Assembly: GCA_022749755.1 (NCBI GenBank)
Contig: CM040447.1
Coordinates: 1,172,033 to 1,236,032, forward strand
DNA length: 64,000 nt
Reading direction: 5' to 3'
Source: Azadirachta indica
Taxonomy: Eukaryota > Streptophyta > Magnoliopsida > Sapindales > Meliaceae
A model generated the notes under the pieces. That model saw nothing but the letters and a program-made list of their open reading frames with translations. It did not search any database and was not told the origin of the DNA. The position numbers and the translations under genes are program-made. This document shows, one piece after another, positions 22,658 to 58,425 of this stretch; the stretch's first letter is position 1; every line of letters begins with the position of its first letter.

Positions 22658-25087
22658 GTGTTTTTTGTTGTGGTCACACTCTGTCCAGTTGAAGACGTTA
22701 AACTTAGCGCTTTTTGGGAGGCAACACAAGCTCTATATTATGTATTTCGTTTGAATTTTTTTTATTATTGTGTTTTCGTTTGCTTATTGTTTAATTGAGT
22801 TTTTGTGTTTTTTCTTTATGGATGTGGAGAATTTGTGCAAAATTAAATTCAAACTAAGGAAGTGGAGGACAAGATGAGAGGTTAAAATTAAAAAAAAAAA
22901 GAAAAACAAAAGAAAAGCAAAAAAAATTGTGGGGGGGGGGCGCAGGCTAATCGCGCGCGCTTGTGCTTACAAAACAAATGGCGCATAGTGGCCGCACAAT
23001 TGGACCGGGCACCCGTGCCACTCCCATCAAAGAAAGGTGTGCGTGCAAGCTGAATGCCTGTCGCATACGCGTGCAACCAAGCGCGCCCGCACTGCACCCC
23101 CCTGCACTTTTTTTTTGCAATTAACTACCCCTCCCCTTCTCTGTTTTTCCTTACCCTTATATTTCTTCCACAATTTTGAGCTACTCCTTCATTGCCACAA
23201 TATATTTTAAATTCCATCCACACTTCCAAATTCAAACCTACCAAACAAAGCACGACCCATCCAACATCAAATTACCAAATTTCTCAACATTGGAGCATGT
23301 GAAAATTTGTGTTCAATGCAAAGAATTCAATCCCAATGTTAAGGATTTTCACAACAAATTCAAATAAGTCTACTTGTCTACAATTTTGTTCTTTGAATTT
23401 AACTTTTGGTGAGAAGTTGAATTTGTGGCACTTTGGTAAAAGGTGGAAGTGTTGGGTTGTTGACTTTTGCAAGATTTGTAGTGGGTGTCATAGATTGATT
23501 GTTATTTTACAAGTGTATGTGTTGATTATGACAAAATTTTGGGGGAAAATTGAAGGATTGAAATAGAAATTGGATGGGTTGATAAAAGTGTGGGGGAACG
23601 AATTGTGGAAATGCTTTGTTGAATGCAATGAGCTTTATTTATCATGTTTTAGGAGTTTTGCTTTGTTTGATTGTTAATTTTGAGTTTGTTTATTTTTAGT
23701 CTTTTCTTTTCTTGGTTCTTGTAAGTATAACACTTCTGTTGAGAGTGGTCTTGTTTTGATGAGCTTGCTTTTATCTTGAATGGAAAGCCAATGATCTTAT
23801 TGTGATTATGAATACTTAAACTGTGAAAAATGATAAATGCTATCCTAAGTCCTTGTGTTTGATTTGTCAACAAATTGATTTTACTAAAGGAGTCCTCTAA
23901 ATTCTTTGAGTACCGAGTCATAATTGCTTGCTATTTAGAAATCTAGATAAAGTTTATGTGATCTAGTAAGGATGTTAAACCTTAGTGAACTCTAGAACTT
24001 AGTTGATGGTCACTTGAGGTGAATTTGTAAAGGATACATCATTAGGGAAATGAATTAGGTTATCTTTGGAGCATTTGAGCCTTTCAAGCCAACTTAGAAA
24101 CAATCAATCTTTAGTTCACCATTTTGAGCATTAATTTTCTTGTTTTATCCTCGTAACAAAAAAAATAAACCAAATTTCATAGCTCTTGGTTTTAGCACCT
24201 TAAAAGCTTTTTTCCTTTTTAGGGCTATTCAATTAAGGGAGGTTGGGTGGAGTACGAAAAATAAGCCAAATTCTTACCAAGTAATCGGGTCTCACACCTA
24301 GGTAAGTATAGAGAACTCGTGTCAAAAGGTAAGAGTAAGGCTAACCAAAAAAAAAAAAATTCTTACTGAGTAACCGGGTCTCACACTTAGATAAGCGTAA
24401 AGAACTCGCATCAAAAGGTAAGATTAGGGTGAAAAAAAATGAATGATGTAATTAAATAAGTGTAGGGTTGAGCAAAATGGAGAGGTGAACAAAGAAAAGA
24501 AGCATGGGATAGAAGAAAGAGTTCTAGGAGGATTAAGGTAATTAATGCTAGAACTTCACTTAAAGAGAGTGATTAGAGAGTGATTTGAAAACTAAGTGTA
24601 TGCAGTTCTTAACCTTAGCTTATCACTATAAGCCATATAAGTCATAAGGATCTTTAATATAATATCCTAATTCATTAGTAGAGAGTGATTTGAAAACTAA
24701 CCTAATTCATTAGTAGAGAGTGATTTGAAAACTAAGTGTATGCAGTTCCCTAGGTGTCCAATTTGAGCTTAATTGTGAGCATAATCTAATCAGAATCGAA
24801 AGACATTCAAGCATGAGTGACAATTTGCACGCACGCAAAAAACCCTTGAGTAAAATGATTTTGTTCTTAAAGTCAAATTATGAGACGAATGACTGCATTT
24901 TGAAAGTTTCCTTAATTTAAGTATAACATTTGATCTATGAGGCTTGATATTGCTTCGACAAAAGGCTTACTCATTCGTTAATTAATCTTAATTGTGAAAT
25001 TTTCTTTTTATTAAATAATTTTCCCCTATCTATTTTCATATTGGTTTAAATTGCTTGAGGACAACATATATTCAATGTGGGGGTATT
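22658..25087 (+). other. Athila-1 3' non-coding region
   Basis: About 2.4 kb between integrase and the 3' LTR with no credible ORF. It has a G-run and a GC-rich patch at 22920-23100, a duplicated ~85-base block (24265-24345 and 24355-24435, with TAATCGGGTCTCACACCTAG-like sequence), and a short repeat of AGAGAGTGATTTGAAAACTA near 24565-24745. It ends in the purine tract GTGGGGGT just before the LTR. The equivalent part of Athila-2 carries the two cargo ORFs. Confidence 0.7.
25077..25084 (+). other. Athila-1 polypurine tract
   Basis: GTGGGGGT three bases before the 3' LTR, the usual place for plus-strand DNA priming. Confidence 0.7.
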
Positions 25088-26543
25088 TGATAAGTGCGTA
25101 AAATGCGCGCTTATTATTCACTCTAAGACTTGATTTGTTTCTTTAATCCTCAAGCCTCATTGGTTTTTGATGTGTTTTGGTTTCATTACATAGAAATTGA
25201 GAAAGCTAGTCATCTAAAGTGATTTCAACTTGAAAAGGAAGATGTTCAGGGACCAAATTGTAAGAGATTTGAGGGCCAAAACACAAGGCATATGGGGATT
25301 AAAGTGCAAAAGAATTGGGATTGATTTGCAAGGTTTTTAAAACTTGGAAGAAGACAGCATGGCACGGCTGAGGCAAAATTTTGGTGCATCGGTGCCATGC
25401 GTTCTGCCTAAGCGCAGAACGCGTACACCATCTTTGCATCCTGCCTCGCGCCCTTGTGCTGTTTTGGCACCCCAGCGCCTACTGCACGCGATTTGGACGT
25501 CTTCTGGGTTTAATCTGAGCCCTAAGATCAGATATGAATGGCTAGATTTAGGAAAGAATTAGGTTATTTATGTATTTGGGTATTGGATATAGGGGAGCCA
25601 TTTTTGGAAGGGTTTGGCTTGCAAGAATAGGAAAAAGAAGAGAAAAGAGAGAAACTTGGAGGAAAAGAGGGGGATGGGAGGTATTTTGTAAGTTGAAGTC
25701 TAGATTTTTGAAGATTAAAGCTCTCTTGACCTAGTTTTATCCCTTTCCCTTGTTTTAATTTGTTGTTTTGAATTGAATAATTTGGAGCTTATTGAGATTA
25801 TGTTATCAATTGTTAAATTCTTAACTTGTGGATTTGAATTTTATCTAATGGCTAGTTAAACTTATATTCTGGGGTGATGATTTAATCTATTTGAAACATC
25901 CGATTTATGAAATTATGTGTTTCATTCGGTTTAATATTGAGTGTTGAGTATCTATCATGACGCTTAATGTTTTTAAATTTGTTGGCCAGTATTTGCATGA
26001 TTTGTGGATAAATATGAACTGAAAAGTAATTATTATATTTAGATCAGGTGATAAATACCGTAAATTGCATGTTAGACAGAAATGTACTAATATGGTTTAC
26101 GTAGTTTTTAAAAATTATCACTAATCGCAATGTACTTTCATTTAACTAGATTCACATACAAATATAGTGAATTATTGAATGCGAAGTAAGTTCGGCTGAT
26201 CTCAAGAGAGATGGTGAAATAAAGTAGGATAATTAACTAGCAGCAAAGGTATTAAACCAGAGCAGCAGTAATTGAAGAATTGGATGTAGCCAAGTATGAT
26301 GAAATTATTAGCCCTAGGTTTTTTTTTTTTTTCCATTAGTTGAATCCTTTAATCAAGTTGCTTAGTAATCAATTTTAGTTTATTCAAATTTCTCAATCAA
26401 TCCATTTTGAATTCTTTAGATAAATTCACAAATTAATCATCTTCAATAATTATTGGCTTAACTTTCCTCGTGGGACTGACACTCTGTTATCATTATATTG
26501 CTTATTTGCGACATGTGCACTTGTGTTCATAATGTACGCAACA
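25088..26543 (+). repeat. Athila-1 3' LTR
   Basis: 1456 bases from TGATAAGTGC to CAACA, aligning with 15699-17160 throughout with many substitutions, so the insertion is not recent. A 72-codon frame inside it is not a gene. Confidence 0.93.
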
Positions 26544-42049: not shown

Positions 42050-42290
42050 TGTTAATGATAATTGATTAATGAAATCAAGATGATTTCTTTTCTAATTTTG
42101 TTAGTCAATATTATTAACAAACTTTCGTTATTTACTATGATTCCTTCTCCTTTTATTACTTTGATTTCTTTCCATAAATATTATACATAATTATAGATTA
42201 TTTATTTCCTTATATATTGTTTTGTAAAGCCTATATAAAAACTACTTTTGTACTAAACTAATTCAAGAAATAAGAATTGTTTTCTTCACA
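42050..42290 (+). repeat. Copia 5' LTR
   Basis: TGTTAATGATAATTG to TTCTTCACA, aligning with 58183-58420. It contains TATATAAAA near 42232, a likely promoter TATA element. Confidence 0.92.
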
Positions 42291-42303
42291 TGATATCAGA
42301 GCC
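42291..42303 (+). other. Copia primer-binding site (tRNA-Met type)
   Basis: TGATATCAGAGCC directly after the LTR, one base away from the common TGGTATCAGAGC site. Confidence 0.85.
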
Positions 42304-42940
42304 AGATTTAGCCTGCTCTCAATATCGGTTTTCCTTCCGATCGTAAGTTCAGAATTCTGTCTCTCCACATTATCTGCAAGGAATCAACGTCTGCCACACG
42401 TGGACTTCACAGACCATTGTCTTCTTTTGCGCATGTGACTCACGTGCTGCCACAACCAACCTTCCTTTTGCAGCACCGCCTATTCCCACAGCATTAGAGT
42501 TTGTCGGCCAATCTACTCGTGGTCTCTGTATCCTCACATGTGCCACCATTAGCCTCTACAAAGATAGCCATTTTTCAGTTCTGTCACGCTTCGATCCGGC
42601 GTATTCTCAGCGAATGAAACCTCACCACCACCATCTTTCGACTTAGAACGCATCGGCCATTGTTCCTGTAGTCTCTTTTGTCATTTCTGGCCATTTATTG
42701 TCGCAGTCGACTCTGGATTAGAACTTCACGCGCTGCCTTTGCTTCGCCAACATCTCTGGCAAGTGAATCCTCACTGCCTCCTTTATTTGACTCAGCACGG
42801 GTCGAGCATCTTGCCTGTCGCCTCTGTGCCTTGTTTCTAGCCACTTACTGTAATGGTTAAACCAGAGTCCAAATTGATTCGACTGTTCTTCGATTAGAAA
42901 GTTTTTTTGATTATTTCTGTATTCTTGTTTCTCTCAAATT

Positions 42941-43900
42941 ATGGATAGATCAGATGTATCTCACCCTGTTCATATCTAGTTAAATGGACATAATTATGTA
43001 TTATGGGCTCAGGCAATGTTTAGTTTCCTCAAAGGACGTCGTCTTTGGCGCTATATTACTGGCCATATCATCGAACCTATAAAAACCAATGAAGAAACTG
43101 ATGAAAAGTTCGTTGATCATTTGGAAGAGTGGTAGTAAAAATCATCAGATTATTATGTGGTTTCGCAATACATCTATCTCTTCTATCCATCTACAATTTG
43201 GGAGATTTGAGACAGCCAAAGCACTGTAGAACTTTCTTGCTTATTGGTATACTGCCACTAATTTATCATACTAGTATCAGATCCTATGCAAGCTTCATCA
43301 GATGCACCAAGAGCTTGGTCAGTCTATTTCTGATTTTCACTCTTGGATGCAATTTTTATAGGACCAGTTATCACTTTCAGAACCTAAGTGGATAACCTTT
43401 GGGGATGCAACAAGATTTGCTACTCACAAGGATCAGCAAAGGTTAATGACGTTTCTCATGGCCTTAAAAGATACATTTGAACCTACTCGAGCTTCACTTC
43501 TTTATTAGAAACCTTTATCTACTTTTGATGAAGCTATTGATATGCTTGTCTCCAAAGAAACTCAGCTTGCTCATCTACAACCATCTTGCCTTGACACTTC
43601 TCTGGCTACAACTTCAGCTTCTCAACCTGTCTTTATAGTAAACTGTAACTATTGTCATAAAAATGGTCTCTGAGTTCTTAATTATCCCATCTGAAGATGT
43701 AAAGTTTGTCGCAAAGTTGGTCTTTAGCACTTTGCACGAGACTGTCCACATAAAGGAAGACCGAAGCATCCACCACTAACTACTGCCGTTGCTGATAACA
43801 CCAATGACTGTCCTACCTCTCTATCCCTTACCACCACTGATCTCGCATATCTTCTTTAGCAACTTTTGCAAAAATCCGGTAATCCTCCCATTTCAGCTTC
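42941..43900 (+). pseudogene. Copia gag remnant
   Basis: Starts at ATG 42941 (MDRSDVSHPVHI), with a TAG soon after at 42980. The copia gag blocks LNGHNYVLWAQAMFSFLKGR and WRYITGHIIEP are readable. A zinc-knuckle-like region (CKVCRKVG, then HFARDCPHKGR) lies near 43700-43760. At least five in-frame stops are present. Confidence 0.8.
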
Positions 43901-43919
43901 TTTAATTCCCTTAGGTATA

Positions 43920-44640
43920 TTCTTTTGGTACTTTGATTCTACATGTTGTAATCATATGACTGCAAACACTACTCTCTTTTCGTCTAAATCTCATGTCTAA
44001 CATTTTCCTGCCATTCAAACTGTGAATGGATTTGCTATGCATGTCAGTCACTTAGGACAAATCTCTTTATCTAATCTCTCTTTACCTAACATCTTCTTAA
44101 TTGCCTCTCTTACTCTCAACCTTTTATATGTTGGTTAATTATGTGATCTTGGTTTTCATGTTCTTTTCACTACGTTTGATTGTCATGTGCAGGATCCGAA
44201 GACAAGTCGAACGCTTGGGATAAACTGTAAGGTTGGATGTCTGTTTGAGCTCATCAGTTTTCATCTGCCATCCACATGTCGCTCTATTCCTCTACCTGTT
44301 GCTTCCACAACTTCTTTTCACTACGTCTGATTGTCATATTCTTTTCATGTTCTTTTCACTACGTCTAATTGTCATGTGCAAGATTCGAAGACAGGTCAGA
44401 TGCTTGGGATAGGCCATAAGGTTGGATGTCTGTTTGAGCTCATTAGTCTTCGTCTGCCATCCACATGTCGCTCTGTTCCTCTACCCATTGCTTCCACAAC
44501 TTCTATCTCTTCCTTAAGTCTCTGGCACTCCTGACTAGAGTATATGTCAATCGATCATCTCCGTTCACTAGTTTATAGTGATATTCTGAGTACTGTATCC
44601 CATAATCAAATTGATTGTGTTTCCTGTCAATTAGCAAAAA
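43920..44640 (+). pseudogene. Copia protease and pre-integrase remnant with an internal duplication
   Basis: A protease-like block WYFDSTCCNHMTANTTLF lies near 43930-43980. Two copies of about 155 bases follow, spaced 189 bases apart (from 44157 and from 44346). The pre-integrase histidine-cysteine end (CVSCQLAKNAAL) is at about 44610-44645. Confidence 0.7.
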
Positions 44641-44644
44641 ACGC

Positions 44645-45014
44645 TGCTTTACCTTTTAATAATAATGACTCTATTTCTACTGCTATATTTGATCTCATCC
44701 ATTCTAATATATGGGGACCCTTTCCTAATGCAACTATGGGAGGTTCCAAATACTTTGTTATTTTTGTTGATGATTACTCACGTTATACATGGATTTATCT
44801 TATGAAGCACATATCAGAGTTATCCAAAATTTATCGTGATTTTGTTAAAATAATTCAAACACATTTTTCTTGCTCTATTAAAGTTTTTCGCACTGATAAT
44901 GCTATGGAATACAGAGATTCTGACTTTTTAGAACTCTTGCAAACTAATGGGACTTTTTGTCAACGCTTTGTCTTGGCACATCCCAACAAAATGGTCAGGC
45001 TGAACGTAAACACA
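44645..45014 (+). pseudogene. Copia integrase, 5' part
   Basis: Integrase core with the first catalytic aspartate region (DLIHSNIWGPFPNATMGG, FVIFVDDYSRYTWIYLM) and the second (VFRTDNAMEYRDSDF). It stops at the Athila-2 target site. The coding sequence resumes in the proper frame at 55979. Confidence 0.9.
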
Positions 45015-45019
45015 GACAT
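45015..45019. repeat. Athila-2 target-site duplication GACAT, left
   Basis: GACAT before the 5' LTR, repeated at 55974-55978. Confidence 0.95.
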
Positions 45020-46419
45020 TGATGAATGTTTAAAAGTGTAGGTTTATTAAGAGAAATATTATGATTTACACTTAATAATGTCCTTCTATTCCCCAATAAT
45101 GAAGCATATTCTTTTATATTGAATTGTAAAACATGAATTGGACTAAATAGTTAGTTTTGCGTAGGTTTCGTATAATGAGCGTATCTTTCAATCCAAATTA
45201 TCAATTGATACGATTCTTGGACTAGACAAACATAAACTCATCATTTCACAACTTTGCAAGCCAAAGGTTGGACCAGTTCGAGCAATTAATGGGATGAAAT
45301 TGGGCTTCAACAGAACTCAAGCGCATCTTTGAACCAGCCCAACATGCTTCCGTATTTGGGCCGTATCTCCCTAAATATGTAACAAAAAATTACGTGGTTG
45401 GGTGATCTAGAAAGCTGATAAAGGGATCTAAATTGTTTATGTTTTGTACTTTCTCAAATTTCAACTGGTAGGTTACCAAAAAGAGCTATCATTCTAGAAG
45501 GGCGGTGGAAAAATGCGACTTGAACATCTCTGCCTATTTTCAACACAACTCATGGTATAAAATAGAAATAAGAGCGAGATATAGACCATTAGAAAGATGA
45601 GTCATCCACCTACAACTTTGAAGAAGGATGCTTTACAAAATTCGGTGGTTTTCATGGTCAAAGATATGTTGGAAGTTGGTAAAGCGTGATTAATTGGAAA
45701 TTGACCAAATTATGTTCACACATGTGGAATGTCTTTTGTTTTACCTATATAAAGGGAGACGTGGAAGTGAGGAGGGAGATCAGATTTTGTTTTTCCATTT
45801 CTATTTTATTGTTGTAATTTAAATTTCAATGATGTATTTCTAATTTCGTAACTAGGGCTAAGGGTAAACTTTTGATGATTTTATAGTTTTGTTCTTTGAT
45901 CTTTTGTTTTGCTCTTCATTGTTAATCTTTTTATTGATTGAGTACTATATTTTGCAAGTGATTTTGAATTGTTAGAAACCTTGATTCATTGTTAACAAAT
46001 GGTACATTGAATGCTTGGATATTTTCTACATATCAAGAGCAAGGCAACTTATAGTTTTTCACCATCAACTAAAAGGTAAGTCTTTTGATTTCTTTGTGCT
46101 TAAATGTTTTGTTTTCATCATCCAATTAAGATCAATTCTTTTGGTTCTTAATTGTATTTTTCTTTTAAAAAAAAGGATCAAGAATAAGTTCTATACAAAT
46201 CATTAAAATGGATCCCTAATGCCCTAATATATAATAATATAGAATTTAAATTTGACAATAAGCAAATTCACTCCATTAGAATATTCGGATTTATAATATT
46301 TAGACCTTTGGACTTGTAGACTTAATATAACATATTCCCTGTGGACCGACACTCGGACTTCCGAACTTTATTACTTGAGACAACCTATATTTGGGAGTTA
46401 CAACCTTTAAGTTGTAGCA
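45020..46419 (+). repeat. Athila-2 5' LTR
   Basis: 1400 bases, TGATGAATGT to TTGTAGCA, nearly identical to 54570-55973. A TATATAAAGG at about 45748 is a good TATA box, placing transcript initiation near 45780. Confidence 0.96.
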
Positions 46420-46425
46420 AATTTT

Positions 46426-46443
46426 TGGCGCCATTGCCGGGGA
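46426..46443 (+). other. Athila-2 primer-binding site (tRNA-Asp type)
   Basis: TGGCGCCATTGCCGGGGA, six bases after the LTR; one base differs from a perfect match to the tRNA-Asp 3' end used by Athila elements. Confidence 0.9.
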
Positions 46444-46500
46444 ATACGGTTTGTATAAAGTTTACTAGTTCTTGTTTAATTTTCTTTTACTAACTTCAAC

Positions 46501-46526
46501 CTCTAACTCTAACTCTAACTCTAACT
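46501..46526. repeat. (CTCTAA)n short tandem repeat
   Basis: Four CTCTAA-type units in the Athila-2 leader. Confidence 0.85.
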
Positions 46527-46925
46527 TCAATATATATTTTTTTTAATTTACTTGTTGTTATTTATTTTTATTGGGAGGCTCAGCCGCCTATTTATTTTTA
46601 CATTATGGTTGGTTCTACATATACCACCTAATTTCTGTTCATGGTAGGCTTTGCCACCTTTCTTAATTTTTTCTATTACGTATTATGTTGTTATTTTCAT
46701 TTACAATAATTTTATTAAGAGGAAGGTTATACCACCTCTTTTCTTTTTTTATTTGTTTTATTGTGCTAACATTTTATTGTATTGTGTTTTCTTATTATTA
46801 TTATTGTTATTTTTATGCTTGGATGGTATCGTGATCCTCATTCTCATCGATTGGTGAAAGGTAATTCTGAAACCTCCTTTGGAAATTTGTTTGATTCATC
46901 TTCAAACTCACACACAACTAACACT

Positions 46926-48422
46926 ATGGCTGAAAATGAAAGTATACATGGAGAAAATGAAAATCATCATGTTCGAACTATGCGTGAATATTTGCAACCT
47001 CCTCGAAATTCATCTCCTTCATGCTTTATTTTTCCGCTTAATGCAAATAACTTTAAATTTAAGCCCGGTATGATTCCTTTACTTCCTAATTTCCATGGCT
47101 TAGAGTCTGAGAGTCCTTATTTACATTTGAAAGAATTTGAGGAAGTGTGTGCCACATTTATGGATCAAACATGTAGTGAAGAAATAATTAAGCTAAAATT
47201 GTTTCCTTTTTCTTTAAAAGATAAATCAAAAACATGGCTTAATTCATTAAGACCTAGATCTATAGGCACATGGCAAGAAATGCAAACCAAGTTTTTAAAG
47301 CAATTTTTTCCAATACATAAAACGAATGCTTTCAAGAGACAAATTCAAAATTTTTGTCAAAAAGGAAATGAAACCTATTTTCAATGTTTGGAAAGATTTA
47401 AAGACTTGTTGAATTCATGCCCACACCATGGTTTTGAAAAATGGCGTACGATAAGTTTTTTTTATGAAGGGTTAACACCAGAGACAAAACAATTTGTTGA
47501 AATAATGTGTAATGGTGAATTTTTAGACAAAGACCCAGAAGAAGCTTTAGAGTATTTAGATCATTTAGCTGAGAATTCTCAATCCTGGCAAACCACTAGT
47601 TCCTCTGAAAATTCAATTAGATCTAATATGACTAGTTCTAGTGGGGGTAAATATAATTTGAGTCAAGAAAATGATCTAAGTGCTAGAATTACAAATTTAA
47701 CGAAAAAGATTGAAGCCATGGAATTAAGGAAAGTTAAAGAGGTCAAATCTGTGCATAATGATGAAATTTGTGAAATTTGTGAAGTCATGGGACATTCCAC
47801 TCAAGATTGTCCAAATATTCCTATTTTTAAAGAAGTGTTGCATGACCAAGCAAATTCTATGAATTCCTTCAAAAAGCTTTTTTCCTCTAATTCTCCATAT
47901 TCTGAAACATACAATCCTGGATGGAGAAATCACCCAAATTTTAGTTGGAGAAATGATAATCATGCCCATCCACCACCTCAAAGACCTTCAAATTTTCCAT
48001 CATACCATTCACCACATTTGAAAACTCTTGAGGAAACATTGCAAACATTCATGCAAGGGCAAACAAGCATAAACAATCAAACATCACAAGCCATTGATGA
48101 TATCAAGAATACACTTTCAACATTGACCTCAGCTTTGCGCAGTCAAGAGAAAGGTAAATTTCCTGCTCAACCACAACCAAATCCAGCGGGTCAATTTCAT
48201 GTAAGTGATTCTAACTCAAATGGCACACAGCACGAGAATGCCAACTCCATCACTACTCTCCGAAGTGGTAAGGTCATTGATAAAACCATTTCTTTGAAAG
48301 AGATTGAACCTAAAGAACCATCAAAATTAGTGAGTGAGGAAAATAATGTTGAACCTAAGATGTGTGATGTTAAAAAATGCCCTATCCCTACTCCTTTTCC
48401 TCAAAGATTGCAACCAATTTAA
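46926..48422 (+). CDS. Athila-2 gag
   Basis: Capsid and nucleocapsid protein of the element, 498 residues from the ATG at 46926. I chose this ATG because the frame upstream of it is leader-like and the family N-terminus starts near here (MAENESIHGE, then TMREYLQPPR). It shows the gag helix-rich region (KFLKQFFPIHKTNAFKRQIQ, CPHHGFEKWRTISFFYEGL), a CCHC zinc knuckle (CEICEVMGHSTQDC, spacing C-x2-C-x4-H-x4-C), and the clade block YNPGWRNHPNFSWRND. It ends at a TAA (48420-48422). The protease follows in the same frame, so this stop could be a gag terminator or a nonsense mutation. Confidence 0.9.
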   Translation: MAENESIHGENENHHVRTMREYLQPPRNSSPSCFIFPLNANNFKFKPGMIPLLPNFHGLESESPYLHLKEFEEVCATFMDQTCSEEIIKLKLFPFSLKDKSKTWLNSLRPRSIGTWQEMQTKFLKQFFPIHKTNAFKRQIQNFCQKGNETYFQCLERFKDLLNSCPHHGFEKWRTISFFYEGLTPETKQFVEIMCNGEFLDKDPEEALEYLDHLAENSQSWQTTSSSENSIRSNMTSSSGGKYNLSQENDLSARITNLTKKIEAMELRKVKEVKSVHNDEICEICEVMGHSTQDCPNIPIFKEVLHDQANSMNSFKKLFSSNSPYSETYNPGWRNHPNFSWRNDNHAHPPPQRPSNFPSYHSPHLKTLEETLQTFMQGQTSINNQTSQAIDDIKNTLSTLTSALRSQEKGKFPAQPQPNPAGQFHVSDSNSNGTQHENANSITTLRSGKVIDKTISLKEIEPKEPSKLVSEENNVEPKMCDVKKCPIPTPFPQRLQPI

Positions 48423-49013
48423 AAGTTGAACCAAAATTCTGAAATTTTTGAACTTTTTAAGCAAGTCAAAATTAACATTCCTTTGTTAGATGCAATTAAG
48501 CAAGTTTCTTTTTATGCCAAATTTTTGAAAGATTTATGCACTGTTAAAAGGAAGCTTAATGTTCAAAAGAAAGCATTTTTAACTGAGAATGTTAGTTCGA
48601 TTATTCAACATAACACTCCACCAAAATATAAAGATCCTGGTTGTCCCACCATTTCTTGTGTAATTGGAAACTTTAGGATAAACCATGCTTTACTTGATCT
48701 TGGTGCAAGTGTTAATTTGTTGCCATATTCAGTGTATGAGCAATTAGGTTTAGGTGAGTTTAAACCTACTTCTACAACACTTCAACTTGCTGATCGTTCT
48801 GTGAAAATACCACGAGAAATACTTGAGGATGTGTTAGTCCAAGTAGATAAATTTTATTTTCCTGTAGATTTTATTGTCTTAGACACACAACCTGTTTCTA
48901 ACTCAAGCACCCAAATTCCTGTCATATTAGGACGTCCATTTCTTGCTACATCTAATGCAATAATCAATTGTAGAAATGGAGTTCTAAAATTATCCTTTGG
49001 AAACATGACATAG
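48423..49013 (+). pseudogene. Athila-2 aspartic protease region
   Basis: Continues the gag frame after one stop codon. Blocks LLDLGASVNLLPYSVYEQLG (active site as DLGA) and IPVILGRPFLATSNAIINC are intact. It ends at an in-frame TAG (49011-49013), and another TAG follows at 49239-49241 before the RT. Confidence 0.88.
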
Positions 49014-49283
49014 GAAATGCATGTATTTAATATTTGCAAGCAACCTAGTGAAAATAATGACATGCATGAAGTTAGTTATATCGAGGAACTCGTTCATGAC
49101 TACTTTAATGTTTCGTCTTTCTCTTATCCCTTGGATGCTTGTTTAAATGGTTGCAATGATTTCAATTTTGATAAAAATTTTGAAGTGTCTCATATTTATT
49201 CTCTTTTAAAATCTTCTCAGGTTTTGGAAGTTAATGGATAGAGACCAAAATTTGAAGACTTACCTCAACGAGCTGATAAACCG

Positions 49284-50830
49284 ATGCCATCGAGTGTTCA
49301 ACTACCAAAACTTGAATTGAAACCATTACCATCTGACCTCAAGTATGCTTTCTTGGGTGCTAATGAAACTTTTCCGGCGATAATTTCTTCTAAACTCAGT
49401 ACTCTTCAAGAATGTAAGTTGCTCGAAATTCTAAGATTGCATAAATATGCTTTAGGATGGACAATAGCTGACATAAAAGGAATTAGTCCTTTGATTTGCA
49501 CACATAAGATATATTTGGAAGATAATGCCAAATCATCTAGACAAATGCAACGTAGGCTGAATCCTAATATGAAAGACGTAGTGAGAAATGAAGTTCTCAA
49601 GCTTTTAGATGTAGGGATCATTTATCCTATTTCTGATAGCACATGGGTAAGTCCTACACAAGTTGTACCTAAGAAATCTGGAGTTACTGTAGTCAAAAAT
49701 GAAAATAATGAATTAATTCCAACTAGAACAATTACTAGCTGGAGAATGTGCATTGACTATAGGAAACTCAACTCAATGACTAGGAAAGACCATTTCCCGT
49801 TATCATTCATGGATCAAATGTTAGAAAGGGTAGTTGGACATGCATTTTATTGTTTCCTAGATGGGTATTCTGGGTATAACTAAATTGAAATTGCACCTGA
49901 AGACCAAGAAAAGACCACTTTCACTTGTTCATTTGGAACTTTTACATATAAAAGGATGCCATTTGGATTGTGTAATGCACCAGCTACATTTCAAAGATGC
50001 ATGTTTAGTATTTTTAGTGATATGGTTGAACGATTTCTTGAAATTTTCATGGATGATTTTTCTGTGTTTGGTGATTCATTTGATGATTGTTTATCTAACT
50101 TGGAAAAAGTTTTGATTAGGTGTGAAGAAAAGAATCTTGTGCTTAATTGGGAAAAATGTCATTTCATGGTCACAAATGGTATTGTGCTTGGTCACATTGT
50201 CTCATCAAAAGGAATTGAAGTAGATAAATCTAAAATTGAATTAATTGCCAATTTACCTGTTCCTAAGTCTGTTAAAGATGTTAGATCATTTTTAGGACAT
50301 GCTAGTTTTTATAGAAGATTTATCAAAGACTTTACTGTCATATCAAGACCATTGTGCAATCTCTTATTAAAAGATGCTCTCTTTGAGTGGACTGAGTCAT
50401 GTCAAGAAGCTTTTGTCAAATTTAAAACTATGCTAACATCTGCTCCTATCATACAGCCTCCAAATTGGACTTTACCTTTTGAAATCATGTGCGATGCTAG
50501 CGATTATGCTGTTGGAGCTGTTTTAGGACAACGAAAGGACAAGAAACCCTATGTGATTTACTATGCTAGTAAAACCTTAAATAGTGCTCAAATGAATTAT
50601 TCTACCACTGAAAAGGAATTACTTGCAGTAGTATTTGCATTGGATAAATTTTGATCTTATCTTGTTGGCTCACCCATTGTGATTTTTAGTGATCATGCAG
50701 CATTAAAATATCTTCTTTCAAAAAAGGATGTTAAACCTAGATTGATTAGGTAGATTCTACTACTTCAAGAATTTGATTTCACAATTCAAGATAAAAAGGG
50801 AGTACAAAATGTGGTTGCTGATCATTTGTC
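49284..50830 (+). pseudogene. Athila-2 reverse transcriptase and RNase H, three nonsense codons
   Basis: All in the gag frame. RT blocks: WVSPTQVVPKKSGVTVV, WRMCIDYRKLNSMTRK, FCFLDGYSGYN to a TAA at 49881-49883, then MPFGLCNAPATFQRC and EIFMDDFSVFGDSFDDC (catalytic FMDD intact), LNWEKCHFMV. RNase H: EIMCDASDYAVGAVLGQRKD and YSTTEKELLAVVFALDKF up to a TGA at 50652-50654. A TAG at 50751-50753 precedes the ADHLSRL end. The 49881, 50652 and 50751 stops each look like one transition away from the expected codon (Gln, Arg, Trp). Confidence 0.9.
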
Positions 50831-51661
50831 AAGACTTATGTTTGAAGAATCGACTAAGACAACACCGATTAATGACAATTTCCCTGATGAGCAACTTTTC
50901 AATGTTTCTATTTTACCATCTTCCAAAAATAATGATCATAAAATTGTTTTGAAATTTTTAAAAGAAAACATTTTTTCAAGATTTGGAGTGACTCGAGCCA
51001 TAATAAGTGATGGAGGTTTACATTTTTGTAATAAGTCTTTTGAGAATTTAATGAAAAAATATGGAATTACACATAAAGTGTCAACCCCTTATCACCCACA
51101 AACAAGTGGACAAGTTGAACTTGCCAATAGAGAAATAAAACATATTTTGGAAAAAACGGTAAAACCGAATCGTAAGGATTGGTCTTTAAGACTAACCGAT
51201 GCACTTTGGGCTTATCGAACTGCTTTTAAATCATCACTTGGCATGTCTCCTTATAGACTTGTTTTTGGAAAGGCTTGTCACCTACCGGTGGAATTAGAAC
51301 ATAAAGCTTTTTGGGCCATTAAAATGCTTAATTTTGACGTAGATAAAGCAGGATCATTGAGAAAACTCCAAATAGATGAACTCGAAGAAATTATGAATGA
51401 AGCTTACGAGAATTCTAGAATTTACAAAAAGAAAATGAAGGTGTTTCAAATAAACATATCATTAGAAAATCATTTGAACCTTCACAAAAAGTTCTTTTGT
51501 ATGATTCAAGATTGCATCTATTTCCTGGCAAACTTCGCTCAAAATGGACAGGTCCTTTCATTGTTAAGAAGGTTTACCCACATGGCGCTGTTGAGATTGA
51601 GAACCCAAAAAATGGTAATGTTTTTAAAGTTAATGGACACCGTTTAAAGCTATTCGTTTAG
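50831..51661 (+). pseudogene. Athila-2 integrase, internally deleted and frameshifted
   Basis: After the RNase H end the frame runs [14 protein letters not shown] and then jumps, near 50925, straight to the middle of the integrase core ([63 protein letters not shown]). The zinc-binding domain and the first catalytic aspartate are missing, a loss of very roughly 550 bases judged against Athila-1. A frameshift near 51440 moves the C-terminal part into another frame, which reaches its own stop at 51659-51661. Confidence 0.88.
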
Positions 51662-51920
51662 AATTTTTCAAGTGAGTTAGAGTCTATCACTTTGAATGAA
51701 CCTGTTTACAACACTGGATGATTTTTTTTGTATATACGTTACTTGTTTTCTTGTGTTATTAATTTTTTTTTTTTGATTCCATTGTTTGTTTTCAGTTACT
51801 TTCCCGGTCAAGTGGCGGATAACGGTACTCCGTGACTCTTCAAGTCAGTTCTTTCAGTTGCCCAAAATTACTGATACTCTTTTTTTTCTCTCACTTCTTT
51901 TTCTATTCTTTTCTCTCATT
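51662..51920 (+). promoter_or_regulatory. Spacer between pol and the cargo ORFs with a strong splice-acceptor-like site
   Basis: A T-rich tract with very few A residues from about 51720 leads to TGTTTTCAG ending at 51795, an excellent plant 3' splice site. In Athila-type elements env-like genes are thought to be made from spliced RNA, so this site may allow expression of the ORF at 51921. This is inference from sequence only. Confidence 0.45.
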
Positions 51921-52469
51921 ATGGATGTCATTCTTTCTAGATTGCAAATATATTTTCCTTCTTTTCCTAAAGATGTTCTACGAAAAATGTACCAAGCTAG
52001 GTGTGCAAGATTAAGAATGCTTATGCAAAAAGGTATTCCTGAAGATGTGCGATGGATAATTGAAGCAAAGGTACGTTTAGCAGGTGAGTTTTCTGATTCA
52101 TTTGTTTCACGCATGCCTGGTTTAAGTAAGAGCTCTTTTGCAAAGAAACGAAAAGCGAAAAGGTTACAATTGTGTCACAATTGTGCACGTTCAACCTGTA
52201 ACAAGCGATGTCGTTCTCTAGGCATGGTGTCTACTAATAGAGAAGATAAAATTAAATTCATCAAGGATGGACTGAGTAAGGAGTCTTTAGATAATATCTT
52301 ATTGACTCTTGAGACGCATCCTAGTGGATATGTGCAACGTGAAATTCTCAATTTGTATACATTATTTCAAAAAGAATGTGATCGTTATAGTCTTGGAAAT
52401 CTGACTTTAAAAGACCCTGTTTGCCAATTTGTAAAAAAATTGGATGAGAAGCCAATCCTCGACCCATAG
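51921..52469 (+). CDS. Small basic protein with a C4 cysteine cluster, resembling viral nucleic-acid-binding proteins
   Basis: An intact 182-residue ORF from ATG 51921. An in-frame non-ATG extension upstream is leader sequence with a T-rich tract, so I chose the ATG. Seen: an N-terminal amphipathic stretch (MDVILSRLQIYFPSFPKDV), a basic run KKRKAKR at 75-81 that could be a nuclear signal, then C85-x2-C88-x4-C93-x3-C97, then FIKDGLSKESL and a charged helical end. Known family for comparison: small cysteine-rich proteins of carlaviruses and related filamentous plant viruses have an arginine/lysine-rich run just before a C-x2-C cluster and are RNA-binding silencing suppressors. The layout and order fit; identity is unproven. 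It lies 260 bases after pol and about 300 before the LOG ORF, same strand. It is not recognised as env. Confidence 0.7.
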   Translation: MDVILSRLQIYFPSFPKDVLRKMYQARCARLRMLMQKGIPEDVRWIIEAKVRLAGEFSDSFVSRMPGLSKSSFAKKRKAKRLQLCHNCARSTCNKRCRSLGMVSTNREDKIKFIKDGLSKESLDNILLTLETHPSGYVQREILNLYTLFQKECDRYSLGNLTLKDPVCQFVKKLDEKPILDP

Positions 52470-52766
52470 AGGGCGTTTAAGCCGTTACTGGACGTAAAAC
52501 CAGAAGAAGATGTGAGCCACAATCACAACTATCTATAAATATTTACTTTTAGCTGTCGTTGTTGAAATTTTTATGTTTTAGATTCCTATATTAGCTGTTA
52601 TCTTTGACATTTTTACATTTTTAAATTTTAACTTTTATGACAACAGCTGGCTTACCTCTATTGGTTTCATTAATGCATTCTCTTTAAGTTGTATAAATGC
52701 AGGACCTCACTTCTTTATTTTCATAAGAAATTTGAATCACTGACGAGGGTAAAAGACTGCAAAAAA
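52470..52766 (+). promoter_or_regulatory. Leader of the LOG ORF with an acceptor-like site
   Basis: Non-coding spacer between the two cargo ORFs. A T-rich stretch (52550-52690) leads to AAATGCAG ending at 52702, an acceptor-like site 64 bases before the LOG ATG. A non-ATG in-frame extension covers part of it and is probably untranslated. Confidence 0.4.
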
Positions 52767-53417
52767 ATGAAAGGAGCTTCTGCTCATCAAATTAAAACTA
52801 TTTGTGTTTTTTGTGGGTCAAGTTCTGGGAAAGGTAAAGAGTTTGTAAAAGCAACAGACAACCTGGGTAGAGTTTTAGCTGAGCAAAAATTTAACCTAAT
52901 GTATGGAGGAGGTAGCCTTGGGTTAATGGGGTGTGTGTCAACTACCGCACATATAGGAGGAAGTGAAGTCATAGGTATCATACCAAAGGCTTTATCTGCA
53001 GGTAACATAACTGGCAAAACAATTGGAGAAGAACTAATGGTCTCAACAATGCATGAAAGAATTACTAAAATGCTTGATTCTGCAGATGCTTTTATTGCCT
53101 TACCAGGTGGTTTTGGGACCTTAGAAGAAAATTTTCAAATTGCATCTTGGGCACAATTCACCGTTCATCAAAAACCTATAAGATTGTTAAATGTTAATGG
53201 TTTCTTTAACAAGTTGTTGTCTTTTCTTGATCATGCTGTAGAACAGAATTTTATTTCACAGATGGCTCGCAAACTCCTCATTTCTGCTCCGACTGCTAAT
53301 GACTTGATCAATCAGTTGCAGAACTTTGTCTATGAACCAGATTCAACAATGGCACGATTAGAATGGTCAAGTGAAAGCAGTAAAAAGCGAAAGCTAGATT
53401 TGTCGCTTCATTTGTAA
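52767..53417 (+). CDS. LONELY GUY (LOG)-type cytokinin riboside 5'-monophosphate phosphoribohydrolase, captured by the retrotransposon
   Basis: LOG enzymes remove ribose 5-phosphate from cytokinin nucleotides and release the active hormone; in plants they are cytosolic and nuclear. This intact, intronless ORF of 216 residues has full family length. Seen: ICVFCGSSSGKGKEF (12-26), NLMYGGGSLGLMG (43-55), EVIGIIPKAL (67-76), MHER with catalytic Arg98, PGGFGTLEEN with Glu121 (motif PGGxGTxxE), LLNVNGFFNKLLSFLDHAVE (140-159) and SAPTAND. ATG 52767 is chosen because the family N-terminus begins within a few residues of it. Oddities: isoleucine follows Arg98 where plant LOGs mostly have lysine, and the tail SSKKRKLD looks like a nuclear signal. 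Host LOG genes have several introns, so the lack of any points to capture from an mRNA. It lies between pol and the 3' LTR of Athila-2. Confidence 0.93.
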   Translation: MKGASAHQIKTICVFCGSSSGKGKEFVKATDNLGRVLAEQKFNLMYGGGSLGLMGCVSTTAHIGGSEVIGIIPKALSAGNITGKTIGEELMVSTMHERITKMLDSADAFIALPGGFGTLEENFQIASWAQFTVHQKPIRLLNVNGFFNKLLSFLDHAVEQNFISQMARKLLISAPTANDLINQLQNFVYEPDSTMARLEWSSESSKKRKLDLSLHL

Positions 53418-54557
53418 CTTTTCTTATCTCTTTTTTCTTTTACTCATTGCATTTTGTTATTTTTTTTGTTATTTTTGCTTAAGTTTGTTTCAGGTTTTAC
53501 TTGTGTTTCAATAACTACTATCTCAGGTAATATTCTTTATACTGTACCTCTTTACGTTTAAACATTGGGGACAATGTTGCAATCTGGTTGGGGGGAGTGT
53601 AGTCGACATAAGTAACCATTTTTTTAATATACGATTAAAAAAAAAAGAAATTATTAGATTCATAATTTGTAAGGATGGTAGAGTAAGGAGTAATCTTACT
53701 CCTGAGACACATCTTAGTAGGTATACATTATCATTTGTTTTGATTTTTGAATTTCATAACAAAGAATTTATCATTCACTTTCTTTTGAATTGATCAAATA
53801 TACAAATTCTCACATCATCATCACATAATAAATTATGCTCAAATACTCAATCAGTAAAATATTTATAAACCATCTTTCACACACATACTTTGATACATGA
53901 TTGTGGATGACATATTGAAATTTTACAATATTTGAGCTCTTTAATTTTGTCAAAGGTAGCAACTAAGGGTTCAAAAAAAAAAATCTCCAAAAAAAAAAAT
54001 AATAATAATAAAAAATTAAAAACAAAATAAATAAATAAATAAAAATTCTAATCAAAACTTTTACTTAGTAACTGGGTTTCTTGCCTAATCAGCAGTGAAT
54101 GTTCGGGTAAAACGGTAAAGTTTTGATATGAATAAGTTCATAACCTTAACTCGAGTAATTAAGGCCGTAGGGGTGTTTTAATACCTAATACCCTAAGGCC
54201 AACTGGTCTGGGAGTTATTGGCCCAAAGCTCGCTACATGGGTTAGGTTATGCAAAAAAAAAAAAAATGGAGATAGAAATAATCTTTACCCAAAGAAGTTT
54301 ACCTTGACAAAATTTAGAACCAATGTTGTTTGATTCTAATTAAGTCCCATAACATGTATTAGTTATAAAAGCACAAAAAGAAGGTTTATTAATAATTCGA
54401 CTGATGAGTATTTGGCACATATATAGTAAATTTTTAAGTGAGAGTTTGTTTATTTTGAGAAGATGAAAAGGAAAAGAATGATTTTTACTTTGAATGTAAA
54501 TTCTATAAATCAACTCTAAATGATATTGCTTATATTACTAGGGACTAGAAATAAGCT
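53418..54557 (+). other. Athila-2 3' non-coding region
   Basis: No ORF of interest. It contains ACATTGGGGACAATGTT near 53561, a near-palindrome of a kind frequent near the 3' end of plant gypsy elements, then GGTTGGGGGGAGTG, A-rich low-complexity runs (53970-54040), and a block near 54060-54130 with TTAGTAACTGGGTTTC that resembles the duplicated block in Athila-1 (24265-24435). Confidence 0.65.
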
Positions 54558-54569
54558 GGTTGGGGGGTG
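54558..54569 (+). other. Athila-2 polypurine tract
   Basis: GGTTGGGGGGTG immediately before the 3' LTR. Confidence 0.75.
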
Positions 54570-55973
54570 TGATGAATGTTTAAAAGTGTAAGTTTATCAA
54601 GAGAAATATTATGATTTACACTTAATAATGTCCTTCTATTCCCCAATAATGAAGCATATTCCTTTATATTGAATTGTAAAACATGAATTGGACTAAATAG
54701 TTGGTTTTGCGCAGGTTTCGTATAATGAGCGTATCTTTCAATCTAAATTATCAATTGATACGATTCTTGAACTAGACAAACATAAACTCATCATTTCTCA
54801 ACTTTGCAAGCCAAAGGTTGGACCAGTTCGAGCAATTAATGGGACGAAATTGGGCTTCAACAGAACTCAAGCGCATCTTTGAACCAGCCCAACATGCTTC
54901 CGTATTTGGGCCGTATCTCCCTAAATATGTAACGACAAATTACGTGGTTGGGTGATCTAGAAAGCTGAGAAAGGGATCTAAATTGTTTATGTTTTGTACT
55001 TTCTCAAATTTCAACTAGTAGGTTGCCAAAAAGAGCTATCATTCTAGAAGGACGGTAGAAAAATGCGACTTGAACATCTCTGCCTATTTTCAACACAACT
55101 CATGGTATAAAATAGAAATAAGAGCGAGTTATAGACCATTAGAAAGATGAGTCATCCACCTACAACTTTGAAGAAGGATGCTTTACGAAATTCGGTGGTT
55201 TTCATGGTCAAAAATATGTTGGAAGTTGGTAAAGCGTGATTAATTGGAAATTGACCAAATTATGTTCACACATGTGGAATGTCTTTTGTTTTGCCTATAT
55301 AAAGGGAGACGTGGAAGTGAGGAGGGAGATCAGATTTTGTTTTTCCATTTCTATTTTATTGTTGTAATTTAAATTTCAATGATGTATTTCTAATTTCGTA
55401 ATTAGGGCTAAGGGTGAACTTTTGATGATTTTATAGTTTTGTTCTTTGATCTTTTGTTTTGCTCTTCATTGTTAATCTTTTTATTGATTGAGTACTATAT
55501 TTTGCAAGTGATTTTGAATTGTTAGAAACCTTGATTCATTGTTAACAAATGGTACATTGAATGCTTGGATATTTTCTACATATCAAGAGCAAGGCAACTT
55601 ATAGTTTTTCACCATCAACTAAAAGGTAAGTCTTTTGATTTCTTTCTTTGTGCTTAAATGTTTTGTTTTCATCATCCAATTAAAATCAATTCTTTTGGTT
55701 CTTAATTGTATTTTTCTTTAAAAAAAAAGGATCAAGAATAAGTTCTATACAAATCATTAAAATGGATCCCTAATGCCTTAATATATAATAATATAGAATT
55801 TAAATTTGACAATAAGCAAATTCACTCCATTAGAATATTCGGATTTATAATATTTAGACCTTTGGACTTGTAGACTTAATATAACATATTCCCTGTGGAC
55901 CGACACTCGGACTTCCGAACTTTATTACTTGAGACAACCTATACTTAGGAGTTACAACCTTTAAGTTGTAGCA
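54570..55973 (+). repeat. Athila-2 3' LTR
   Basis: 1404 bases, nearly identical to 45020-46419. The largest difference is an extra TTTC unit near 55645. Confidence 0.96.
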
Positions 55974-55978
55974 GACAT
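55974..55978. repeat. Athila-2 target-site duplication GACAT, right
   Basis: Matches 45015-45019. Confidence 0.95.
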
Positions 55979-56600
55979 ATCCTTAAAACTGTCTATGCTC
56001 TTCTCATCTCTGCCTTTTGTCCAAAACGTTTTTAGGCAGAAGCTGCTTTTTATAACTATATACATTATCAATTAACTTCCTTCTCCACTCTTTGAAAATC
56101 AATCTCCTTATGACCGAATGTATGGGACTCCTCCTGACTATAATCTATTTAAAGTTTTTGGTTATGCCTGCTTTGTTTTTCTACAACCTCATGAATATAC
56201 CAAATTAGAACCACGTGCTCGTCTATGTTGTTTTTTGGGATATAACATTGAACATAAAGGGTAAAGATGTTGGGATTCTATATCCAATTGACTATGTATA
56301 TCTAGATATGTAGTCTTCTGGGACCACAAAATATTCTTGTCCATTTCCAGTTTTCGTTCAAAGTTTAATCTTCCTTCTTTCTTTACTCACAATTCTATAG
56401 ATTTGTTTCCAGGTGACACTGATGTAAGTAATTCAAATGAGCCGTCAGCAGATATATCCACTGCACCACTGCCTGCTCTTAAGCTGACGACTTTGTCTTC
56501 TACGTCCACATTTGACGTCTCTGTTGTCCCTCTGTCTCATTCTTCTGATCTTCCTTCTCCACCTCATCAATCCGATCGAGTAAAAACACTTCCTATTTGA
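55979..56600 (+). pseudogene. Copia integrase, 3' part, and linker
   Basis: Continues the integrase core from 45014: readable peptides include LKTVYALLISAFCPK and, after frame changes, YNLFKVFGYACFVF and EPRARLCCFLGYN. A serine/proline-rich linker (56337-56600) leads to the RT. Stops and frame shifts are present. Confidence 0.85.
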
Positions 56601-57716
56601 CTTCGAGATTATCACTGTTTTTCTGCTACTCTTTCCTTGTATGAGCATCAATTCTATTTCGAGGCCAGTTCTAATCCTGTTTGGCAGCAAGCAAAGGCAG
56701 AAGAACTGCATGCACTTGAAAAATCTCATACATGGGACCTAGTTGATCTACTACCTCAAAAATCAGCATTTGGTTGTAAATAGGTTTACAAAATCAAAAC
56801 TAAAGCTGATGGTTCTATTGAACGGTACAAAGCTAGACTAGTTGCTAAAAAATTCAATCAGGAGTATGGTATTGATTATGAAGAAAGCTTTGCCCCTGTT
56901 GCCCGAATGATATCAGTACGAAGCCTTTTGGCTGTGGCTGCTGTACGATGATGGACACTGTTTCAGATAGATGTTAAAAATGCTTTCCTCAATGGTGATC
57001 TCACTGAAGATGTTTATATGAAGCCTCCTCCAGAATATTCCCATCCACCACACAAAGTCTGCAAGTTTCGTCGTGCCTTGTACGGTCTCAAACAGACTCC
57101 TAAAGCTTGGTTTGCCAAGTTTATCACTACTATTCAGCAACTTGGGTTTCACTCTAGCTCTTATGATATAGTTTTCTTTATTTGCAACATAAATCATGGC
57201 TGTATTTTTCTCTTACTTTATGTGGATGATATGATTATTACTGGTGATGATATTAATGGAATATTTACTCTCAAGACTTTACTTCAACAGTATTTTGAGA
57301 TGAAGGATGTTGGTTATCTTAACTACTTTCTTGATTTGAAAGTACTTTCTGACTATAATGCCTACTATCTTTCTCAGACCAAGTATGCATCTGATCTCCT
57401 TGCTCAAGCTGGGTTGATCGATAATAAAATTGTTTCTACTTCTCTAGAGCTCAATGCCAAACTCACATCTCTTGACGGGGTTCCACGTAAAGATGCCATC
57501 CTTTATCGACAGTTGGTTGGTAGTTTAATTTATCTCACAGTTACTCGACCTGACATCTCTCATGCTATTCATATTGTGAGTCAGTACATGTCAGCTCCCG
57601 CTCTCCTCATTATGAAGCTGTTCTTCATATTCTTCGCTATATCAAGAACACTTTATTTCATGGACTTCATTTCTCTGCCCATTCGTCTCTACAGTTACGC
57701 GCCTTTTTTGATGTAG
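56601..57716 (+). pseudogene. Copia reverse transcriptase remnant
   Basis: RT blocks: [59 protein letters not shown], then the open stretch 57018-57716 with CKFRRALYGLKQTPKAWF, LLYVDDMIITGDD (catalytic YVDD intact), DLLAQAGL and LVGSLIYLTVTRPDISHAIH. Two stops precede the open stretch and a frame change follows near 57600. Confidence 0.9.
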
Positions 57717-58182
57717 ACTGAGTTAGTGATCCTATTGACCGACACTCTACCACAGGTATTTGTATTTTTTTGGGTGACTCTTATTTCTTGGCATTGTAAG
57801 AAGCAGATTGTTGTTGCAAGATCTAGCACGGAGACAGAATACTGTGCTCTTGTAGATACTACTTAGGAGATTATTTAGCTTCGTTGGCTTCTCAATAATA
57901 TAGGTATTCATCATTCTAGTCCTACTTCTTTGGCCTGTGATAATAATATTGTTATTCAGATTGCCCACAATGATGTCTTTCATGAGCGCACAAAACATAT
58001 TGAAGTTAACTATCATTTCATTCGTCAATATATCACTCAAGGCACCATTATCCTTCGTTTGATCCTTTCTTTGAACCAACTAGCAAATATATTTATCAAA
58101 AGTCATTATCCTGGGCGTTTTCATGATCTGGTGTCTAAAATTAAGATAACTTTTATTAAACCATATTGAGTTTGAGGAAAAC
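57717..58182 (+). pseudogene. Copia RNase H remnant and 3' end
   Basis: RNase H pieces: SWHCKKQIVVARSSTETEYCAL near 57785-57850 (shown by its central motif ARSSTETEYCAL) and RTKHIEVNYHFIRQYI near 57985. The frame ends before the 3' LTR. A weak purine stretch GAGGAAAAC precedes the LTR. Confidence 0.82.
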
Positions 58183-58420
58183 TGTTAATGATAATTGATT
58201 AATGAAATCAAGATAATTTCTTTCCTGATTTTGTTAGTCAATATTGTTAACCTTTTCTTATTTGCTATGATTCCTTCTCTTTTTATTATTTTGATTTCTT
58301 TTCATAAATATTGTACATAATTATATATTATTTATTTCCTTATATATTATTTTGTAAAGTCTATATAAAGGCTATTTTTGTATTAAACTAATTCAAGAAA
58401 TAAGAATTGTTTTCTTTACT
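58183..58420 (+). repeat. Copia 3' LTR
   Basis: 238 bases aligning with 42050-42290, including the TATATAAAG region. Confidence 0.92.
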
Positions 58421-58425
58421 GTTAT
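58421..58425. repeat. Copia target-site duplication GTTAT, right
   Basis: Matches 42045-42049. Confidence 0.88.

Follow-up and report, generated by a model that had tools for sequence, protein, structure and literature searches.

The 64,000-nucleotide stretch of Azadirachta indica DNA analysed here (hereafter the window) raises the question of why a plant LTR retrotransposon would carry a gene for a LOG-family enzyme, and of what that gene might do for the element. The earlier note on this DNA had claimed an intact LOG ORF with both catalytic residues, in sense orientation inside the element, between pol and the 3' LTR. All of this is borne out: the ORF encodes 216 amino acids, matches Pfam family PF03641 with an E-value of 3.3e-39, has both Arg98 and Glu121, and is enclosed by the LTRs and by GACAT duplications. 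The features of the element are as follows.

45015..45019, no strand: left target-site duplication, GACAT
45020..46419, + strand: 5' LTR (TG...CA), with a TATA-like CTATATAAA near 45745 and a candidate splice donor AAAAG/GTAAGT at 46075/46076
46420..46445, + strand: primer-binding site TGGCGCCATTGCCGGGGA, directly after the 5' LTR
46782..48422, + strand: gag ORF, open (PF03732)
48426..51647, + strand: remnants of protease, RT/RNase H and integrase, interrupted by in-frame stops
51787..51795, + strand: candidate splice acceptor (pyrimidine tract and CAG) ahead of the virus-like ORF
51921..52469, + strand: virus-like ORF for a cysteine-rich/nucleic-acid-binding protein of 182 aa (NABP-like; relatives in PF05515 and PF01623)
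52684..52702, + strand: best-conserved part of the spacer between the NABP-like and LOG ORFs, TTAAGTTGTATAAATGCAG, a possible TATA box or splice acceptor
52767..53417, + strand: LOG-family ORF, 216 aa, with R98 and E121
53382..53414, + strand: C-terminal tail of LOG, KKRK-LDLSLHL, a basic stretch and an LxLxL EAR-type motif
54550..54569, + strand: polypurine tract region ending in TTGGGGGGTG, with a GGGGGG tract ahead of the 3' LTR
54570..55973, + strand: 3' LTR
55974..55978, no strand: right target-site duplication, GACAT

The element is 10.95 kb long and has the hallmarks of Ty3/gypsy retrotransposons, namely TG..CA LTRs, a target-site duplication, a primer-binding site, a polypurine tract and the order PR-RT-RH-INT. 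Both LTRs have the termini TGATGAATG...TTGTAGCA, and they are 97.8% identical by blastn (K2P 0.0196). We take the primer-binding site to be of the tRNA-Asp type. Nonsense codons had been reported in gag-pol; they do interrupt the rest of the frame, but gag itself (46782-48419) is open. The stops lie at 48420, 49011, 49881 and 50652, and the first of these may simply be where gag normally ends. Approximately 490 nt of the integrase are missing near 50918-50924 relative to L072, a contig from another source described below, in which this region is open. The element is probably of the Athila type, an assignment based on the earlier note and on the 2011 work of Steinbauerova et al., who reportedly found LOGL4-like ORFs in two Athila-like elements. 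No match to ATHILA ORF-1 (PF03078) was obtained among the seven window ORFs scanned; as that ORF is reported in only 16% of Athila elements, it is not required for membership.

The LOG-bearing element seems to be nested inside a Copia element (region 42050-58425). Copia traces flank it, in the form of an interrupted integrase-like ORF (44544-45041) and an RT-like ORF (57018-57716), and a repeat with 90% identity is present on both sides (42050-42296/58183-58425), which may represent the LTRs of the enclosing element. The window also contains a second, older gypsy element (16119-26533; LTR-like repeats 87% alike, RT 59% identical), in which we found neither a LOG nor an NABP-like ORF.

The LOG ORF belongs to the regular gene set of a multi-copy Ty3/gypsy family and lies 3' of pol, next to another extra ORF (51921-52469) that the earlier note had missed. 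The host genome (280.8 Mb in 21 contigs) harbours at least 150 relatives of LOG (152 matches; 394 candidates, 150 scored) and at least 150 of the NABP-like ORF (332 candidates, 150 scored), which disposes of the one-off capture envisaged before. An NABP-like ORF lies within 2.5 kb upstream, on the same strand, of 118 of the 150 LOGs listed, for an expectation of 0.12 under random placement; the other 32 have none among the matches listed. Within the 30 best LOG loci, which include the window copy (L001), the NABP-like ORF is present in 29 (L027 is the exception), and LTR sequence follows LOG in all 30, reversed in L019 and in the same orientation in the others. Each step of the order NABP-LOG-LTR thus holds for all but one of these 30 loci, contrary to the misassembly that had been considered. 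LTRs are found on both sides in all 11 copies checked, i.e. the window copy and ten others, with K2P values of 0.005-0.047; for the ten further copies, the 5' boundary fell within the fetched stretch in three, and duplications matching at four of five bases were seen by eye in two of these three. The copy at C8:8987713 (C8 ~8985k-8996k; L002, L032 and L047) has an interrupted 5' LTR and shares the flanks of the window copy. It is therefore a duplicate of the window locus rather than an independent insertion, either a duplicated locus or an uncollapsed haplotype. No stop is listed in LOG for 13 of the 30 best copies, and many copies carry stops. The pairing of LOG with the NABP-like ORF is not universal, since no LOG was found within the 986 nt that follow the NABP-like ORF of L072, and the other gypsy element in the window lacks both ORFs.

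Once inserted in the host genome, the copies decay neutrally. Pairwise dN/dS of LOG ranges from 1.2 to 1.35 where dS is below 0.05 and lies at ~0.67-0.69 where dS is 0.2-0.4, the tree of the copies is star-like, and third codon positions are no more variable than first or second ones. Purifying selection on LOG within the genome was looked for in pairwise dN/dS, in singleton versus shared variants and in near-fixed differences, and we make no claim of it, these approaches indicating neutrality or having no power; near-fixed differences in particular were too few (7 nonsynonymous, 5 synonymous). The dN/dS comparison among element-borne copies proposed in the earlier note thus yields about 1, as expected of neutral decay. 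The same note had read the open LOG frame as a hint of selection. Chance suffices here: 0.26 nonsense mutations are expected in the window LOG since insertion, and with a probability of none of 0.77, frameshifts left out, an open frame is the expected outcome.

On a longer timescale, in a comparison between species, the NABP-like ORF of the window differs from that of L072 with dN 0.095 and dS 0.436, a ratio of 0.22. The median ratio relative to L072 is 0.24 over 45 rows (range 0.19-0.79, the highest value belonging to a poorly aligned row), and that of the integrase is 0.07. Scans of viral contigs with LOG or NABP yielded no match, and the scan of genome contigs with NABP yielded a single contig, L072, without LOG, so that NABP and the integrase are the comparable parts. 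L072 (DAIEQH010000041.1) is a Candidatus Nomurabacteria MAG contig with a plant-type retrotransposon integrase and an NABP-like ORF, and LOG is absent from the 986 nt that follow the latter; plant contamination is the probable origin of this contig. As for LOG, its long-term maintenance is suggested by the conservation of the protein across plant orders.

That conservation extends to the fold. The window LOG scores 170.7 bits against NCBIfam TIGR00730, its closest solved relative is AtLOG3 (structure 2a33, E 5.5e-62), and its model (pLDDT 87) lies within 0.7 Å of that structure, with a confident core and a tail of low confidence. It combines the fold, PGGxGTxxE motif, Arg98 and Glu121 of LOG phosphoribohydrolases. 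In an alignment of 42 chosen LOG rows, Arg98 is invariant and Glu121 is present in at least 90%. Among the 120 listed relatives of the window LOG, GTLEE or PGGxGTxxE is found in 109 and absent from 11, and the pattern M/I-[HSQ]-x-R is found in 103 and missing in 17, some of these rows deviating merely in the first residues; the catalytic Arg is lost in P0028, which has Cys instead, and in P0004. The MHxRK motif, with a Lys after the catalytic Arg, is intact in all of the 120 best AtLOG3 relatives but survives in just 6 of these 120 proteins. The window LOG has MHERI and thus lacks it, and the six proteins with Lys (P0001, P0003, P0048, P0092, P0108 and P0112) all belong to a basal or Xanthoceras-like group. 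The element LOG clade has therefore retained the fold and mostly the catalytic Arg and Glu, and has mostly lost the adjacent conserved Lys. A cytokinin-activating function is plausible. The window LOG reaches 118.7 bits with the NCBIfam cytokinin-LOG model, whose cut-off is 300; we dropped this failure as an argument against enzyme function because three ordinary plant LOGs, with 131.9-133.7 bits, also fall below the cut-off.

We built a tree of 64 LOG proteins, with set members clustered at 80% and with 30 AtLOG3 relatives and AtLOG8 included; its root is determined by two bacterial sequences as well as by long branches. The window LOG and 29 set members form one clade (support 0.96), and the plant LOG clade, made up of the AtLOG3 relatives and AtLOG8 (support 0.79), excludes the element LOGs, from which it is separated by a long branch. 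The search for a donor by means of such a tree, as advocated before, succeeded in placing the element clade outside the plant LOGs but pointed to no donor gene, the root being set by the two bacterial sequences. An intronless LOG-like ORF at C7:771342 was rejected as a donor, as it groups with canonical LOGs outside the element clade. The listed sources of clade relatives are Xanthoceras, Melia, Diplodiscus, Reevesia, Populus and Parasponia; the clade spans Sapindales, Malvales and Rosales along with Populus-type members, and identities to the window LOG are ~56-81% in aligned rows. Given a single clade on a long branch, with members in several plant orders, we infer that the capture of LOG is not recent; the earlier suggestion of a recent capture also fits poorly with a gene common to a multi-copy family.

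The LTR context of LOG was established in the host genome; for other species it is suggested by gene models in which LOG is fused to element parts, namely P0232 of Rhamnella (LOG and NABP) and, by eye, P0001, in which a gag-protease-like sequence lies between two LOG domains. Gene models of Reevesia pubescens account for 38 of the 120 listed LOG relatives, and their tags, read as chromosome names, correspond to 16 chromosomes, which fits a dispersed repeat. If the reading favoured below is true, some rosid 'LOG' models, such as Populus 'LOGL10' and many of those in Reevesia and Diplodiscus, may be retrotransposon genes.

The C-terminal tail is an unusual feature of most element LOGs. LxLxL occurs within the last 30 residues of 102 of the 120 listed relatives of the window LOG, a set retrieved with the tailed protein as query, which may slightly favour tailed matches. 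It occurs in none of the 120 best AtLOG3 matches, a comparison set outside which LOG8-type proteins and other paralogues fall, and extending the search to their last 60 residues did not reveal any. The corresponding figures are 1 of 120 for NABP-like proteins and 10.1 of 120 for shuffled tails. After clustering at 75%, 17 of 20 LOGs have the motif; in all 17, Leu occupies positions -5, -3 and -1, the residues in between vary, and Lys or Arg dominates from -11 to -8. In the host genome, 42 of 47 LOG copies have kept the tail. The definition of EAR motifs as LxLxL or DLNxxP applies to the LDLSLHL of the window LOG, LxLxL being reported as the commonest form and C-terminal LxLxLxL forms being known (PMC9956375). 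The motif is missing in 18 of the 120 listed relatives, including the basal P0092 and P0112. As the basal element-like LOGs (P0112, P0092, P0001 and P0003) keep MHERK and are devoid of LxLxL, gain of the tail and loss of the Lys were probably derived within the element LOG clade. We found no report of an EAR-type tail on a retrotransposon LOG among the titles and abstract beginnings of the open-licence papers listed for these topics, and the tail and Lys loss look new.

The NABP-like ORF has 345 relatives at E<=0.001, and the 120 listed include proteins from Xanthoceras, Acer, Populus and Rhamnella. A Pfam scan of 45 members (E<=0.01) detected Carla_C4 in 41 and Viral_NABP in 38, and two other families in three and one members. 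The window protein scores 25.2 bits against PF05515, above the curated cut-off of 23, and 15.8 against PF01623, below the cut-off of 20.9 that P0126, P0134 and P0139 exceed. Judging from these profile matches, the ORF is related to the cysteine-rich/nucleic-acid-binding proteins of carlaviruses and betaflexiviruses, which are known to suppress RNA silencing. Compared with predicted viral structures, its weak model (pLDDT 62) gave a best E-value of 0.061, with all values above 0.05; within these limits, 15 of the 16 named proteins among the top 18 matches are of betaflexivirus type, a family to which we assigned them ourselves, and eight of the 15 are named RNA silencing suppressors. No solved relative was found (best E 0.49). 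Among the titles and abstract beginnings of the open-licence papers listed, we found no report of a carlavirus-type partner in retrotransposons either, and this partner of the element LOG likewise looks new.

The earlier note knew of no described case of a retrotransposon with LOG. However, the LOG (YgdH) domain has been published in LTR-element consensuses of Citrus sinensis, C. clementina and Populus trichocarpa (PMC9289625, citing Steinbauerova et al. 2011); like the window element, these are gypsy elements of plants that encode a LOG domain. Section 12 of that article, in which they are treated, mentions no EAR-type tail, lost Lys, virus-like ORF or copy number. Populus LOGs are represented by P0036 in the element clade of our 80%-clustered tree. 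The retrotransposon LOG is thus already known, and what may be new is its tail and its virus-like partner. Athila elements reported with env-like or other 3' ORFs similarly have a sense extra ORF between pol and the 3' LTR (PMC7264820, PMC6317226, PMC11728184); theirs are env-like or ATHILA ORF-1, unlike the LOG and carlavirus-type protein found here. The latter shares with PF01623 and PF05515 proteins, such as the p12 protein of chrysanthemum virus B (CVB), Pfam matches and a Cys cluster after a basic stretch, and with p12 a possible role as a suppressor or transcription factor (PMC12172455). It differs from the carlavirus proteins in its 182 residues, its long conserved N- and C-terminal parts and its being encoded by a retroelement rather than an RNA virus. 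CVB p12 is described as suppressing silencing weakly and as acting as a transcription factor, with hyperplasia as a consequence (PMC12172455).

How might such a gene pair be expressed and used? The strong candidate splice donor GTAAGT of the LTR is kept in all seven other 5' LTRs that cover the site, the AG of the candidate acceptor ahead of the NABP-like ORF in 19 of 30 covering rows, the window included, and the AG of the TATA/AG-like stretch ahead of LOG in 43 of 48 rows; these stretches are AT-rich and the copies young, which makes such conservation weak evidence. Both proteins could be produced from subgenomic transcripts, by splicing from the LTR donor or from an internal promoter. The virus-like protein might then blunt RNA silencing, act as a transcription factor, or both, and the LOG protein would enter the nucleus, where its LxLxL tail would recruit TOPLESS-type corepressors, with or without release of cytokinin. 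Cells would be kept permissive for both expression and transposition of the element. Each inserted copy would decay neutrally, constraint being confined to the source lineage. We therefore favour, tentatively and with not quite even confidence, the explanation that the two genes are an old host-manipulation cargo in which LOG has been retargeted to the nucleus and to corepressors. The more specific proposal of a conserved, effector-like module of two proteins, an RNA-virus-type suppressor or transcription factor and a nuclear EAR-tailed LOG recruiting TOPLESS, kept across rosids for very long, is one in which we have somewhat less confidence. EAR-type motifs are short, and TOPLESS binding by the element LOG is a motif-based prediction.

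The main competitor to retargeting, a possible yet rather doubtful one, is an ordinary LOG enzyme that raises active cytokinin wherever the element is expressed and thus favours division, the tail being neutral or minor. The retained fold, the frequency of GTLEE or PGGxGTxxE, the invariant Arg98 and a cytokinin-LOG score close to those of ordinary plant LOGs all speak for it, and cell proliferation is likewise driven by carlavirus p12 (PMC12172455). Against it stand the near-general loss of the MHxRK Lys and the gain of a tail with strictly spaced Leu residues. The tail might instead be used for nuclear import or packaging. If so, the LOG fold and the basic tail could serve the element's own cycle, by hydrolysing nucleotides and by carrying the particle or cDNA into the nucleus, rather than regulation of the host, and most tails do contain a KKRK-like stretch. 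We consider this unlikely: LxLxL spacing is not a known import signal, and neither LOG nor NABP was found in the window's other gypsy element. Extra ORFs with nuclear signals are nevertheless reported in sunflower elements (PMC11728184).

Neutral dN/dS among copies and the stops in many of them would also be consistent with a host gene captured once and without function for the element. Such a passive passenger is very improbable given its single clade, the level of identity and conserved tail across several plant orders, and the NABP-like ORF upstream of most listed LOGs. Finally, we give practically no credence to a host LOG gene adjoining the element or to a misassembly, which is refuted by the enclosing LTRs and duplications and by the repeated NABP-LOG-LTR order; the element LOG also lies outside the plant LOG clade.

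The proposed host manipulation would have counterparts elsewhere. The anti-silencing protein of Vandal transposons is VANC. The anti-silencing ORFs reported for Vandal (PMC11728184) similarly exemplify protection from silencing encoded by a transposon, although Vandal is a DNA transposon and the protein is a different one. Insect LINEs with a plant-virus-type helicase (PMC4686597, PMC5563155, PMC6338049) are another case of an RNA-virus gene in a retroelement that may suppress silencing; they differ in being LINEs, with a helicase and no hormone enzyme in the accounts given. The pathogen effectors HaRxL21 and Jsi1 (PMC7446885, PMC8126959) resemble the window LOG as potential host manipulators with an EAR-type motif; interaction with TOPLESS is reported for them, whereas the window LOG has the motif alone. 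What extra ORFs do for plant LTR retrotransposons is described as largely unknown (PMC11728184). The LOG and NABP-like ORFs have recognisable relatives, in cytokinin activation, corepressor recruitment and silencing suppression. If our reading is true, a genomic parasite would be exploiting its host by the very means that plant pathogens and viruses use.

Two further observations concern the window at large. Rfam snoR71 has two matches, at 17799-17905 and 47326-47434 (minus strand), with 47.2 and 40.9 bits for a cut-off of 40; one of them lies antisense within the gag ORF, and the snoR71 family may derive in part from retrotransposons. Lastly, positions 602-10334 consist of tandem 4.8-kb copies (602-5414 and 5515-10334) that are 99.4% alike, with a GC content of ~15-27%.
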